A stretch of 64,000 nt of DNA from assembly GCA_003223325.1 (NCBI GenBank), contig QHYS01000057.1:1-64000 (forward strand), read 5' to 3'. This document shows positions 22,950 through 58,173 of this stretch, one piece after another. Under the pieces are notes generated by a model, which saw nothing but the letters and a program-made list of their open reading frames with translations, did no database searches and was not told where the DNA came from. Position 1 is the first letter of the stretch; each line of letters starts with the position of its first letter. The DNA is from Acidobacteriota bacterium (GTDB lineage Bacteria > Acidobacteriota > Terriglobia > Acidiferrales > UBA7541). Position numbers and translations under genes: made by a program.

Positions 22950-23360
22950 GTGGAAAAGAAATTCCTTCTGGTTTCAGCGGTCGCGGCTGGGCTGCTCTCT
23001 GCCACCGCGGCGTTTGCGCATCACGGGACCGCGGGATATGACATGGCGAAGGTTGTCACCCTCACGGGTGCCGTGACCAAGGTCGATTGGACTAATCCGC
23101 ACATTGTCATCTACATGGACGCGAAGGATGCTGGCGGAAACCTCCAGCATTGGTCTCTCGAACTCTCCGCTCCGCTTCTCATGCAGCGTTTCGGCTGGAC
23201 GAAGAATTCCGTCAAGGCTGGAGACCAACTGGTCGCCGAAACCCATCCCGCAAAGAACGGCGCCCCGGTCGGAACCAGCGGGACCGCAACTTTTATCCTG
23301 AAGTTCGTGGTGAACGGCACACCGCTGCCCGTAGTCGGAGGCGCGCCGCTTCGCGAGTGA
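22950..23360 (+). CDS. DUF6152-family secreted protein (copy 1)
   Basis: Signal peptide ending AFA then HHGTAGYD; LTGAVTKVDWTNPHIVIYMDAKD; GTG start; paralogue at 56160-56567. Confidence 0.85.
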   Translation: MEKKFLLVSAVAAGLLSATAAFAHHGTAGYDMAKVVTLTGAVTKVDWTNPHIVIYMDAKDAGGNLQHWSLELSAPLLMQRFGWTKNSVKAGDQLVAETHPAKNGAPVGTSGTATFILKFVVNGTPLPVVGGAPLRE

Positions 23361-23387: not shown

Positions 23388-24221
23388 TTGCGTCAGATGA
23401 TGAGGAGTCACACGATGCGGAATTGCCGGATCAGCTTGCCTAAGAGCTTGGCCGTCTTCGTGGGCTTACTGTGCTGCACCCCGGTCCTGCTTGCACAAAC
23501 CGAGGCCCCACAAAAGCCGGCGAATTCACCCGCCGCCCCGGCTTCTTCTCGGGCGCCAGACCTCTCTGGGAATTGGGCCATAAAGCCGGGCGGGACGAGT
23601 TGGGATCCGTCCGACCCCAATGGCAGCAAGCCCGAGCAGCTCCCGATGACGCCGTGGGGACTCGAACGGCTAAGGGCCGCCAAGCCTCCCTTCGGAGCCC
23701 ACCAGTCCTTCGAGCCCAATGATCCCCACCAAAGGTATTGCGATCCCCCCGGCACGCTGCGTATGTACTCTTACCCCTGGCAATTCACCATCGTGCAAAC
23801 TCCCGCTCAGGTTTACCTGCTCTTTGAATACCTTCATACCTGGCGTGTGGTTACCATGGATCGGCCGCATCCCAAAGATTTGGACTCCAGCTGGCTCGGC
23901 GATTCGGTGGGCCGCTACGAGGGCGATGCGCTCGTCATTGACACCATCGGCTACAACGACAAGACCTGGCTCGACATGGTGGGACATCCGCACAGCGATC
24001 AATTGCACACCACCGAGCGCCTGCGCCGCCTGAATCACGATACCTTGGAGCTGGAGCTCACCATCGGAGACCCCAAGGCCTATAGCCGGTCCTTCACTTC
24101 AAAGAAAATCTTCAAGCTGAGCTCTTTTCCCATGGGCGAGACGATGTGCTCCCTCTCCGAGGATCAGTCGTTTCAGCGGAACATTATGGATCGCACGGTT
24201 TCCTCGCCCCCCGCGAAATAG
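23388..24221 (+). CDS. secreted protein of uncharacterised family, partner of DUF6152 gene (copy 1)
   Basis: PDLSGNWA, GDSVGRYEGDALVIDTIGYNDKTWLDMVGHPHSDQLHTTERLRR; paralogue at 55422-56144. Confidence 0.8.
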   Translation: MRQMMRSHTMRNCRISLPKSLAVFVGLLCCTPVLLAQTEAPQKPANSPAAPASSRAPDLSGNWAIKPGGTSWDPSDPNGSKPEQLPMTPWGLERLRAAKPPFGAHQSFEPNDPHQRYCDPPGTLRMYSYPWQFTIVQTPAQVYLLFEYLHTWRVVTMDRPHPKDLDSSWLGDSVGRYEGDALVIDTIGYNDKTWLDMVGHPHSDQLHTTERLRRLNHDTLELELTIGDPKAYSRSFTSKKIFKLSSFPMGETMCSLSEDQSFQRNIMDRTVSSPPAK

Positions 24222-52185: not shown

Positions 52186-53237
52186 CTAGTTCCGGCCGTG
52201 GCCTTCTTGATCTTCGTCGTCGGCATACACCACGACACCGACACCGGTCACGGGCACAAAGATGTGGTTATTCTCACTGTTTGCTGCGAGCGAGTGTGTA
52301 TCCCCCACATCGATGCTAGCAATTACCTGATAGCTCGTAGCGTCGACTACGAATATGGGTTGATTGCCAAAGTAAACGCGGTTGTCTCCCGGGTTGTACC
52401 AAATTTCGTCGCCGCTGACTCCGGCGATCGTGGCCAGGGTGGCGCCTGTTCTGGCATCGAGGACCACACCACAGCTGGTCATTAAACGCTGCCCGGGCAG
52501 CAGGGCCAAACCGGCCGGACCGCAAGGCGTCGTTATGGGGAAGACGTTGGTCACGCTTTCCGTCTTGGGATTGATTTCGTCAACTTCTCCGTTCGGGTTC
52601 GCGACCGTGGCGGGCACCGACATGTAAAACCTATGCCTTTGCTGGTCCCAAACGGGCTGCTCGAGGCCGGCGGTAGCTTGGGGGTAGGAGATATGCCCAA
52701 CACGGTACGAGTTTCCACCGAGATAAACGTCACAAACGGAACTGCGTCCCTGTCGTTGGCAACCAAGATGACTTGATCCACAGGATCATAAGCCAACTCG
52801 TCCGCCCGGTGATCTCCGCCGGTAGGTATGCTGGTCACAACGGACCCTGTGGCCAGGTCGACGACTTTCACCGTGCTGTCGCCGTCGCCTGCCCAAAGCT
52901 CATTCCGTTTATGGATGACCAACACACCGTCTGGACCGGACAGCCCGGATCCGGCATTGCCGACAAACCCAGTAATGGAATAGAGAAAGGTGTCATGTTC
53001 GGCATCGATAACTTCGACGCGTCCCGTCCCCGGAGTGCTGGTGCGATCTGCAAGGTAGTAGGTCTCGCTCGCGGAATCAACCCAACTAATGTCGAAATGT
53101 GGGAGGTTCCCGGGGATGGTGATTGTGGTTATTTTTCGAGGTACGATGTTGTCATCTGCAGACGAAGTTGCTACCGCAAATAAAGCTAGCAGGCCCCAAA
53201 CCAGCAGTGAGATGGGAATTAGGTTCCTCTGCTTCAT
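52186..53237 (-). pseudogene. YVTN-type beta-propeller secreted protein, frameshifted near 52.69 kb
   Basis: N-part MKQRNLIPISLLVWGLLALFAVATSSADDNIVPRKITTITIPG...; C-part MSVPATVANPNGEVDEINPKTESVTNVFPITTPCGPAGLALLPGQRLM; connecting GHISYPQATAGLEQPVWDQQRHRFY lies in the second frame. Confidence 0.82.
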
Positions 53238-54034
53238 TAGAGGGCTCCTCCTGTTTTTGGCTTTCAAAACCCAGGGATATTTTGCGGCGAAGTACACTCC
53301 ATTCATTTGCAGTTGTCAAGGACAGGGAGACCAGGGAGACTTCCGTCGGTCGCCGGAAATCCTTCCTCGATGCGCCTGGTTCCGTCAGAACAAACTTGGA
53401 GAAGTGACTGTCGTCGATAAGCGTTTTGCTCTGCAGGTATAGCGATACCGGGATTCAATTCCACTCCCCTGTAAGTCCCTTATCACCGTATGGCTATAGA
53501 CACGAGACCTTAATTGTTGCCATTTGCTGCATCTATTTGTTGTTGGTACGGCCAAGTCGCCTGATAGTCCAACGCCGAAGCCCCGCCGAATCTGTTAAGC
53601 AAAGACGTTAACTTTTCAGTTGGAAGGGTTGTTACCAATCAACCCGACCGAAAGACCGAAACAACTGCTCGTTACCGTTGATTCGAGGTCGCGGCTGTGA
53701 AATCGTCCAGAAGAAGCGTGGCCGCTGGCGCTTTGTAGGCACACGAGAAATGGTAGTCTGGGTTCAGTAATGCTTGGGCACTAAGGTCCTGCCCCTTCAA
53801 AAGGTGAGCGAGATTTTCCGCCTGCGAATACGTCAGTTTGAACATAATCTCGACCTTGCCATCGGTGAACGCACTTACATCCGGGGAGTATTTTCGGCGA
53901 ATAGCCGGTGCCGGCTCTCGCGATGGTGAAATGATTTTCGACGGCGAAATCTACTTCAGGTTGTCGGTTGGATTTTTCCACGGTCGACTTTTTGGCGAGA
54001 ACGGACTGGAAAGTTTTGGTCGCAATGAGGGTTA

Positions 54035-54512: not shown

Positions 54513-55412
54513 CTAGTGTAGGCCGGCCTGTCCGAGCATTTCCAAGAACTGCCTGTGCGTCCGCATATCGATTGACTCGGCGACCAGTCTCCCGGAGCGG
54601 TCATACACAAAACTCTTCGGAATTCCATTGATCTGGAATAGCTCGTTCACTTTTCGTCCCGAATCCAGAAGAACCGGATAGGTGACGTTTCGCTTGGCAA
54701 TGAACGGCTTTACCTTCGTCACGTCCTCATCTGAGATGCCTAGTATCACGAATCCTTGGTCTTTGAACCGCTCGTACAGGCTTTCGAGATCAGGCATCTC
54801 CTTGAGACAGGGTGGGCACCAGGTGGCCCAGAAGTTGACCAATACTACTTTGCCGCCGAGATCCCTCAGCGTCCAACTTTGCCCCTGCAAGTCTGTCAAC
54901 GTGAAATTCGCGCCCTGACGCCGCTCGTCGTCTGCATCAATTTTCGACAACGCTGCGGCAAACTGCAAATCGTCCAAGGACGCCTGAACATGCTCGTATC
55001 GCACGAGCTGCGCGAGCTCGACATAGGGAACCCCAGGTTGTCCCGGCTTTGAGTGGATCGGTTGCTCGCGGAGCGAATCCGCCAACGTGGTTGCGACCTC
55101 TTGTAGCGCGTCGTATCCAAAGTCGCCCTCGGTTGACAAGCTTGCAAGCTGAACAGCCAGGCGCAGTTTATTCGGCGTCACAGGAAGCTGTCGAATCGCA
55201 GACGCCAGCTGTCTGGTCTTGCGAGCCCTTGCCTCGTCCGACCTCTGACGAAGTCCATCCAGATCCTTGGCGATAGGCGCCTCTTGGCTGCTCCACGCGA
55301 TCGGCCGCTTTTGCGCGCCGGCAGGGTATGGACTCGCGAGCAACCATGCAAGGATCGGCGGTGTCAGAATGAACGCCATTCCTTGTGCAAGACTTAGCTG
55401 CCGTCGAATCAT
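54513..55412 (-). CDS. TlpA-family thiol:disulfide oxidoreductase, secreted/anchored
   Basis: FTLTDLQGQSWTLRDLGGKVVLVNFWATWCPPCLKEMPDLE; INGIPKSFVYDRSGRLV. Confidence 0.93.
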   Translation of the reverse strand: MIRRQLSLAQGMAFILTPPILAWLLASPYPAGAQKRPIAWSSQEAPIAKDLDGLRQRSDEARARKTRQLASAIRQLPVTPNKLRLAVQLASLSTEGDFGYDALQEVATTLADSLREQPIHSKPGQPGVPYVELAQLVRYEHVQASLDDLQFAAALSKIDADDERRQGANFTLTDLQGQSWTLRDLGGKVVLVNFWATWCPPCLKEMPDLESLYERFKDQGFVILGISDEDVTKVKPFIAKRNVTYPVLLDSGRKVNELFQINGIPKSFVYDRSGRLVAESIDMRTHRQFLEMLGQAGLH

Positions 55413-55421
55413 GTGTAAACC

Positions 55422-56144
55422 TTATTTATTCAATTTATTCGTGCGCCTGAGGTGGGCCCTGTCCTTCTCATTCTCCTCGCAGGAATAGGACATGATCTCG
55501 GTGTTCTGGCGTTTGATGGGCAGAGTGACAGACCAAGGTTCGGTATAAAACTTGGGGTCCTCGAAACGGACGGTCCACTTGATATTGTCCGCGTCGACCT
55601 TTTGAAAACGCTCGACCAGATGCAGTTGGTCGCTGTGCTGATGGCCGGCGGTATCGAGCCAGGTCCGATCGTTGAGACCGACCGTATCGACCACTAAAGT
55701 GTCTCCTTCCCAGTGGCCGATCGAATCGCCAAACCACGTCGGGTCCACATCGCTCGGATGGCTGCGTCCATCGGTGTTGATAATTCGGAAAGTGCGCTGA
55801 TTCTCAAACAAGATGGCCGTCACCGCAGGCGTCTGAACGATCTGGAAGGGCATGAGGCCCGCTTGAATTCCTCTCGCCGGGCCGATGGGCAAGCACTGCG
55901 TCAACGGATCATCGATTTCGTCTTCTTTTTTGAAGAGGTCGGCGGCGTAAGGGGTAAACGGAGGCTGATGACCGAGCGGTTTGGAAATGTCCGGCGTAAA
56001 AGGCGCCGACCAAACTCCATTCAGATCCGGCGGACCCGACGCTTGGGCACCGCCCGCGGGGCGTCCGGAACATGCAGTAAAAAACGGCAGGGCGAGGAGG
56101 GCAACAATGACCCCGATGAACGCTGAGCGAGAAGGGTGACTCAT
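55422..56144 (-). CDS. lipoprotein of uncharacterised family, partner of DUF6152 gene (copy 2)
   Basis: Lipobox-like FFTACSG; PDLNGVWSAPF; FGDSIGHWEGDTLVVDTVGLNDRTWLDTAGHQHSDQLHLVERF. Confidence 0.82.
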   Translation of the reverse strand: MSHPSRSAFIGVIVALLALPFFTACSGRPAGGAQASGPPDLNGVWSAPFTPDISKPLGHQPPFTPYAADLFKKEDEIDDPLTQCLPIGPARGIQAGLMPFQIVQTPAVTAILFENQRTFRIINTDGRSHPSDVDPTWFGDSIGHWEGDTLVVDTVGLNDRTWLDTAGHQHSDQLHLVERFQKVDADNIKWTVRFEDPKFYTEPWSVTLPIKRQNTEIMSYSCEENEKDRAHLRRTNKLNK

Positions 56145-56159: not shown

Positions 56160-56567
56160 TCAGTTCTTATCGTAGGCTTTGATGTTTCCAGGGCCGACCG
56201 TGAGTTGGTGGCCATCCTGAAACGTAATCGTCGTGCAAGCAACTAGATGGGCGCCATCTCGGGCACGAAAACCCTTGGCCGTGAGCATGTCGCCGGGTTT
56301 GACGGTATCTTTTCGCCATCCCTGCCGGGAAAGAATATTGGGGGGGCTTCCCTCAAAGGCCCAGTTCACCACTTTGCCGTTCGCGTCTTTGACGTCCAGG
56401 TAGAAGTAGATGTGCGGATTCATGAACTCCATTTTGGTGACCACTCCGGTGAGCGTCACAGGTTTGGTCTCGTCAAATTCCACGCTGAATCCGTGGTGCG
56501 CCACCACCGGCGCGGCGAATACGAACGCAGAGGCAAGCGCCAGGGCACAGAAAAGAGTGCTTCGCAT
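56160..56567 (-). CDS. DUF6152-family secreted protein (copy 2)
   Basis: MRSTLFCALALASAFVFAAPVVAHHGFSVEFDETKPVTLTGVVTKMEFMNPHIYFYLDVKDANGKVVNWAFEGSPPNIL; GGAGG RBS. Confidence 0.88.
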   Translation of the reverse strand: MRSTLFCALALASAFVFAAPVVAHHGFSVEFDETKPVTLTGVVTKMEFMNPHIYFYLDVKDANGKVVNWAFEGSPPNILSRQGWRKDTVKPGDMLTAKGFRARDGAHLVACTTITFQDGHQLTVGPGNIKAYDKN

Positions 56568-56660
56568 AAATTTCCTCCAGGAGCAGCTCCCTAAGCCGTT
56601 TATATGCCAGCGATCCGTGCGGGTCAAGCATCGCGGGCGCACCAAGAGGACAAGCGCGCG

Positions 56661-58173
56661 TCATTCGGGCTTGGCCGAGGCTAGCGTTGCGGCGCCGGTG
56701 TCCGGCGCGCCGTGCCAGGGCCATTCGCCGCGCCGGAAGGCACGGAAGAAATAGAGCACGAGACCCGCAATAAGCAGCACGATGGCGTAACGAATTTCGC
56801 GCAGGAAATTCGGCCGCGAAATCAGAATGTAGACAAATCCCGCGATAGCGCAGAGCGCCGGCAACGGATAGAGCCACATGCGGAAGGGCCGCGGCATGTC
56901 TGGTTGCCGGGCCCGCAAGATCAACAGGCCCACCTGCTGCAATAAAAATTGCAGCAGGATGCGGATCACGACGAGCGCCGCGATCACGTCGGCCAATTGC
57001 AAAAAGCAGAACGCCGCCGCGACCACTCCCATCACCAGCAGCGAAACATTGGGGAATTTGTGTCGCGGATGAAGCCGGCCGAAAACTTCGAAATAATTTC
57101 CGTCCAGAGCGGCGGCGTAAGGCACACGCGAATATCCCAGGAGTAAAGAGAAGATCGATCCGAAGGCGGTCCAGATAATCAGCAGAGTGGCCAGCTTGCC
57201 GGCCCAGCCGCCATAAATCTGTTGCATGAAAACGGCAATAACCGAGGAGCGCGCGTTTTCGCTCGTTTGCCCCTGGAGCTGCTGCCAGGGAATCACGCCC
57301 CGAAATGAGTACCGCGCGCGGCACGTTGCGCTCTGGCTTCTCCACTTCACCCGCCAGATAACAGATGTTGTAGTAACCCCAATAATCGTATGCCGTCACG
57401 AGCAGCGCCGCTCCAAGCCCGGTAAAGAAGTTCATCGAAGGCGTGAACGCGCCTGGCGGAAAATCGAAAGCTTGGGCGGCATGAAAATGCGTGATGCCGG
57501 CGGAGATCACCCAGGCAACCGTAACGAGTACGCCTCCCCACAACCACTTCGAGAGACGCCCGATGCTGGTGATCCGCCGATAGAGCAGCGCGACGGCAAA
57601 GGCGCATGTGCCTATGGCCAGCCAGGTGCCGGGCGTGATGACCACATTCGTTTCCAGCCGTCCGAGCAGCGGGATGGCCAGATGCACATTGCCCCGTAGC
57701 AACACTCCGCGCAGATTGGGCCAGAGAAAACCTGCGTACGCGGCGAGCCCGATGCAGCCGGAAGCAATCGAGAGCGGCGCGCTGAAGGTCAACTGCCAAA
57801 TGAAGAGAAACGACATCATCCGGCCGAGGCCCTTCGGCCCATAAATCTGTTTCAGATATTCGTAGGGCCCGCCAGCGCGCGGCATGGACGCGCCCAGTTC
57901 GGCGACTACCAGGCCGTCGCAGACGGAAAGCGCCGCACCGAGAATCCATCCGACGAGCGCCTGCGGACCGTGCATCGCGGCAACCACCAGCGGCAGCGTG
58001 ATGAATGGGCCGACGCCGATCATGTCCAGCATGTTCAGCGCGACGGCACTGCCGAGGCCCATGCCGCGGATCAGATTTTGAGATGGCTGCGGAGAATGGG
58101 CCTGTGACTGGTGCAAACCGGAGGAATCTTGCCGCCAACTTTGGGCCGCACCGTCTTTGGTGGAAGAGGTCAC
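56661..58173 (-). pseudogene. APC-family amino acid permease with internal deletion/frameshift near 57.3 kb
   Basis: N-part ALNMLDMIGVGPFITLPLVVAAMHGPQALVGWILGA...GEVEKPERNVPRAVLIS; C-part GVIPWQQLQGQTSENARSSVIAVFMQQIYGGWAGKLATLLIIWTAFGSIFSLLLGYSRVPYAAALDG in another frame. Confidence 0.88.

Follow-up and report, generated by a model that had tools for sequence, protein, structure and literature searches.

The window, a stretch of 64,000 nucleotides of acidobacterial DNA, contains two genes of the DUF6152 family (PF19649). Copy 1 (P0001, 56160..56567 on the minus strand) encodes 135 amino acids from an ATG start that is preceded by the ribosome-binding site GGAGG (56574-56578), and copy 2 (P0002, 22950..23360 on the plus strand) encodes 136 amino acids from a GTG start. 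They match the family profile over nearly the whole domain, with E-values of 3.6e-29 and 6.2e-30 and scores of 101.2 and 103.6 bits, respectively, against a curated cut-off of 27. The predicted signal peptide of P0001 (MRSTLFCALALASAFVFAAPVVA, codons at 56499..56567), assigned from its sequence, the signal peptidase I signature of the family and a rule-based score, ends in FAAPVVA and is followed by HHGFSVEFD; the codons of the first two mature residues (His1-His2) are at 56493..56498, and those of an internal NPH motif (mature N27-P28-H29, within FMNPHIYFYLD) are at 56412..56420. The signal peptide of P0002, read from the sequence (codons at 22950..23018, ending in LLSATAAFA), is followed by HHGTAGYD (His1-His2 codons at 23019..23024) and further in by WTNPHIVIYMD (NPH codons at 23094..23102). 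With Ala directly before HHG and NPH leading into a strand in both proteins, the two copies are as described in the sequence-only reading, which had pointed to a histidine pair following a signal peptidase site and to a conserved internal histidine.

Each DUF6152 gene is followed on the same strand by a gene for a secreted protein of one unnamed family. The partner of copy 1 (55422..56144, minus strand, 240 amino acids with a lipobox-like signal) lies 15 nt downstream; that of copy 2 (23388..24221, plus strand, up to 277 amino acids) is 35% identical to it in sequence. The partner family, which has hundreds of copies in the loci that were fetched, matches no Pfam or NCBIfam entry; its members carry the motifs PDLxGxW, WEGDTLVVDT and PHSxxLHxxER, in that order, and two conserved cysteines. 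A partner modelled by AlphaFold2 with a pLDDT of 91.6 weakly resembles fatty acid-binding protein (FABP), SAHS, retinol-binding protein and nitrophorin in Foldseek searches (E 1e-3, TM 0.4-0.5), and on this model the partner may be described as a calycin-like barrel. Nine nucleotides after the partner of copy 1 is a gene for a TlpA/AhpC-TSA-type thioredoxin-like protein (54513..55412, minus strand; PF00578, 2.2e-29), possibly the third gene of the copy-1 operon and specific to it, as such genes are not among the common neighbours of the family. On the other side of copy 1, an amino-acid permease gene (56661-58173, minus strand) is split by a frameshift, and about 47 nt present in the close relative L110 are absent near 57300; it is either a decayed gene or an assembly error. 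A gene for a secreted beta-propeller-like protein (52186-53306, minus strand) also appears to occupy two frames near 52600, possibly due to a frameshift.

The pairing of DUF6152 with the barrel extends well beyond these two loci. About 109 kb of the contig from which the window is taken encode exactly three DUF6152 proteins and three partners, all paired; 275 of the 349 unfused DUF6152 genes with enough flanking sequence have a same-strand partner no more than 400 nt away, and in 19 of 538 proteins the two are fused, with DUF6152 on the N-terminal side. Genes for PQQ dehydrogenases and for reaction-centre-type cytochrome c proteins recur in the neighbourhood of some copies. One frequent cluster of apparent neighbours was discarded, being an antisense frame of the partner gene.

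The genome that contains the window has 100 DUF6152 matches in 6.1 Mb, or about one copy per 60 kb, and three other genomes of the genus have 31-82 copies. The full family alignment was too divergent for scanning the collection, and a subset served instead. Of 396 genomes sampled from the phylum, 53 carry DUF6152, mostly at low copy number, with scattered large expansions elsewhere (88, 69, 67, 46, 43, 34 and 25 copies). A marine gammaproteobacterial metagenome-assembled genome of 2.2 Mb (G433) has 75 copies, about one per 30 kb, in a class where only 8 of 369 sampled genomes have any. The expansion is both extreme and patchy, occurring in a few genera and absent from most of their relatives. 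Among the roughly 100 copies in the genome of the window, those at L082, L083 and L079 are frameshifted or truncated, which suggests that gene birth and death are still under way.

Conservation was assessed in 538 distinct DUF6152 proteins, comprising the copies of this genome and relatives from Acidobacteriota and beyond. The histidine pair is at the expected point in 533 of them; four of the five others are truncated, frameshifted or masked orfs, leaving one real exception. The pattern across the family is far beyond random expectation, and a chance motif was rejected; in the window itself, CAYCAYGG occurs 15 times where eight would be expected, but only two of the 15 are at signal peptide ends with NPH following. 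Relative to the pair, position -1 is Ala in 94% of the proteins that have it, position -3 is Ala, Val or Leu in 85% and position -4 is Pro in 66%; the stretch upstream is hydrophobic, and the sequence is variable from position +3 onward. Such a profile marks a signal peptidase I site directly before the histidines. In 305 of 413 proteins, a cleavage scorer of our own making gave its highest score to precisely this site; no other offset came first in more than 24. Being a rule of thumb, the scorer is not decisive for one protein, and it gave P0001 a score of 4.2 before the pair and 4.0 five residues earlier, and P0002 a score of 4.4 before the pair and 4.5 at -3. At the level of the family, the cleavage prediction that the sequence-only reading had called for and the conservation of the pair that it required both came out in its favour: the mature DUF6152 protein almost certainly starts with two histidines, the cut being supported family-wide, and from this we infer a free His-His N-terminus for each single protein.

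The internal histidine is conserved to the same degree. H29 is His in all 525 aligned copies that bear the N-terminal pair, and the only columns of the alignment at 100% are H1, H2 and H29, ahead of P28 (99%), G69 (99%), G60 (97%), N27 (96%), W46 (94%) and E49 (91%). It is retained in divergent copies that have lost P28 (SNH, ANH, AAH) or N27 (VPH, SPH, TPH), and the combination of A|HHG with NPH is also found in Proteobacteria that match PF19649 only weakly (E 1e-7 to 1e-11). The sole intact member without the pair, a protein fused to its partner (L468 463-1633) and followed by a normal copy with HH and NPH, has a mature start of QLPFAATYD and NPR in place of NPH. Because none of the other members, more than 530 in number, shows such losses, the joint loss is unlikely to be a coincidence; H1, H2 and H29 therefore behave as a single functional unit, with the limit on any explanation built upon it that the co-loss is a single case.

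An AlphaFold2 model of mature P0001, computed with 88 paralogues (pLDDT 91.2, pTM 0.83), is an OB-fold. Its elements (strands 8-25, 30-37 and 43-49, helix 53-57, strands 71-79, 85-93 and 98-100) follow the DSSP order E-E-E-H-E-E of a barrel of five strands in which a helix separates strands 3 and 4, and its N-terminus is confidently modelled since residues 1-10 have a mean pLDDT of 89. The very top Foldseek matches in the PDB are all OB-folds (the anticodon domain of LysRS, PriB and SSB), matched weakly at E ~2e-3 and TM ~0.5. Faint Pfam matches to DUF4131 (0.01) and DUF5666 (0.005) are also consistent with an OB-fold, and a search of PDB sequences with the family profile gave no credible match. 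CopC and the lytic polysaccharide monooxygenases (LPMOs; AA9/AA10) are beta-sandwiches of the Ig-like/FN3 type, a fold that the DUF6152 model does not share, and they were matched in neither the Pfam nor the PDB sequence searches; a histidine brace by homology of fold was accordingly ruled out, and any analogy is functional at best. Thus, of the proposal that DUF6152 is like a histidine brace, what stands at the level of the family is the N-terminal pair with an invariant internal histidine, lost together in the one exception, and what falls is kinship with LPMOs and CopC.

Whether the histidines meet in space was approached through co-variation. Direct-coupling analysis recovered the expected strand ladders and linked residue 8 with residues 31, 70 and 67, close to the NPH turn (z >4), even with the genome of the window left out. 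In a tree-controlled test, 18 independent pairs gave 2.2 versus 1.2, which does not support the co-variation; it is not counted as evidence for that reason, and co-evolution was dropped as an argument for proximity of the N-terminus to NPH. Coarse C-alpha modelling with the ladder restraints allowed 14-27 A, neither excluding nor requiring convergence.

In all six of the distant Proteobacteria with a single divergent copy, DUF6152 has a different neighbour: an adjacent gene on the same strand encodes a DUF6644-like protein with four transmembrane segments (4-TM), and no partner barrel was seen beside DUF6152 in these six. Among 44 DUF6644-like proteins, 41 matched DUF6644, 11 matched DUF2214 (best 5.6e-7) and three matched CopD (PF05425; best 0.002), the last far below Pfam's cut-off for membership. 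The DUF6644-like proteins have invariant His and Trp residues and often occur two in tandem; their genes are next to or near DUF6152 at L568-L573 and also at L005, L106, L283, L403 and other loci. The pair is suggestive of a CopC/CopD-like arrangement.

The reading that we favour, and in which we place about half of our confidence, is that DUF6152 is a secreted or periplasmic metal-binding protein with one site on an OB-fold. Signal peptidase I would cut directly before His-His, as the family-wide signature indicates; the free N-terminal amine and the imidazole of His1, together with His2 and with H29 of the NPH turn, would then form a single transition-metal site on the barrel. The metal would most probably be Cu(II); Ni, Zn and Co are other candidates. 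In the manner of CopC or an 'anglerase', DUF6152 may capture the metal and hand it on to a partner that is either secreted or in the membrane. To judge from gene neighbourhood, the recipient in single-copy Proteobacteria may be the adjacent, faintly CopD-like 4-TM protein, and in the expanded lineages, where fusions also occur, it may be the calycin-like barrel.

The site could be simpler than this. It is unlikely, though far from fanciful, that the N-terminal histidines bind metal alone, as in Ang-1, and that H29 has a role of its own, structural or functional, in the turn between strands 1 and 2. Chelation by an N-terminal His is possible with no further ligand from the protein, and in RbAng-1a His1 is joined by an Asn (PMC12537917). 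In the OB topology read from the DSSP string, strand 1 has residue 1 at one end and residue 29 at the other, and, as a point against one shared site, a canonical OB topology could set the start of that strand and the strand 1-2 loop apart. However, H29 is just as invariant as H1 and H2 and was lost with them in the only exception. If the histidines instead bound heme or another ligand, served in secretion or processing, or formed an interface with the partner, no metal need be involved; some calycins do bind heme, and nitrophorin is among the weak Foldseek matches of the partner. We consider this improbable, as signals for processing would leave an invariant internal histidine unexplained, and an exposed terminal pair with a distant invariant histidine is unusual outside metal or heme sites.

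Rather unlikely, yet less so than a role without metal, is a catalytic site: DUF6152 and the calycin-like barrel would constitute a secreted two-part redox enzyme, either a copper oxidase or a peroxygenase, in which the barrel holds a small organic substrate and the 100 or so pairs act on different ones. The near one-to-one pairing and the fusions speak for such an enzyme, as do the fold of the partner, the lineage-specific expansion and the recurrence of PQQ dehydrogenases and c-type cytochromes near some copies. The similarity to calycins is weak, however, and in single-copy Proteobacteria it is the 4-TM protein, not a barrel, that adjoins the gene. About 100 paralogues count against a pure copper chaperone and suit a system with many specificities. 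At its most ambitious, and this we regard as a long shot, the interpretation would be that DUF6152 and the barrel are an undescribed secreted two-part metalloenzyme, joining an OB-fold with a bis-His copper site to a ligand-binding barrel, with 70-100 divergent pairs per genome serving many small molecules.

As a candidate for a new family of N-terminal-histidine metalloproteins, DUF6152 is both well founded and testable. The prediction is sharp and cheap to check: none of the three residues should be dispensable, and the N-terminus must be the authentic one. If it is true, the few proteins that bind metal by their own N-terminal histidine would be joined by another family, and by one with a fold new among them, and an uncharacterised gene family that ranks among the most amplified in this analysis would gain its first functional handle. 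The Pfam entry PF19649 gives no function, and a literature search found no mention of DUF6152 or PF19649; the histidine pair at the signal peptidase site, the invariance of H29, the OB-fold, the partner and the expansion of paralogues are described here.

CusF is an OB-fold periplasmic protein that binds Cu(I) or Ag(I) through internal His, Met and Trp ligands. DUF6152 resembles it as a small periplasmic OB-fold for which copper binding is proposed, and differs in its N-terminal histidines and in having no sequence match to it in the Pfam and PDB searches. With CopC and the LPMOs, DUF6152 shares the sequence side of the copper histidine brace as defined in PMC10952591, one histidine at the mature N-terminus and another inside the chain, the former being predicted family-wide and the latter present as H29. 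It is also like CopC in context, as its gene in Proteobacteria adjoins one for a 4-TM protein whose similarity to CopD is weak; it is unlike them in having an OB-fold rather than an Ig-like/FN3 sandwich and two consecutive N-terminal histidines. Signal strapping has brought to light secreted proteins that were found by their N-terminal histidine and bind Ni or Cu with nanomolar affinity, in families of which two (Ang domains) are fused to permeases of the HupE/UreJ type (PMC12537917). DUF6152 is like these proteins (DUF4198, DUF6702, Ang-1 and Ang-2) in being secreted with a conserved histidine at the predicted mature N-terminus. The N-terminal histidine is conserved in 79% of DUF4198, 65% of DUF6702 and 100% of Ang proteins, and the crystal structures of DUF4198 and Ang-1 are beta-sandwiches (PMC12537917); in contrast to DUF4198 and DUF6702, DUF6152 shows stronger conservation, with HH and H29 invariant, and its modelled fold is an OB-fold. 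By sequence logic DUF6152 fits the class of signal-strapped N-terminal-histidine metalloproteins, and there is a strong case for regarding it as a candidate metal-binding protein of a new kind, the metal probably being copper.
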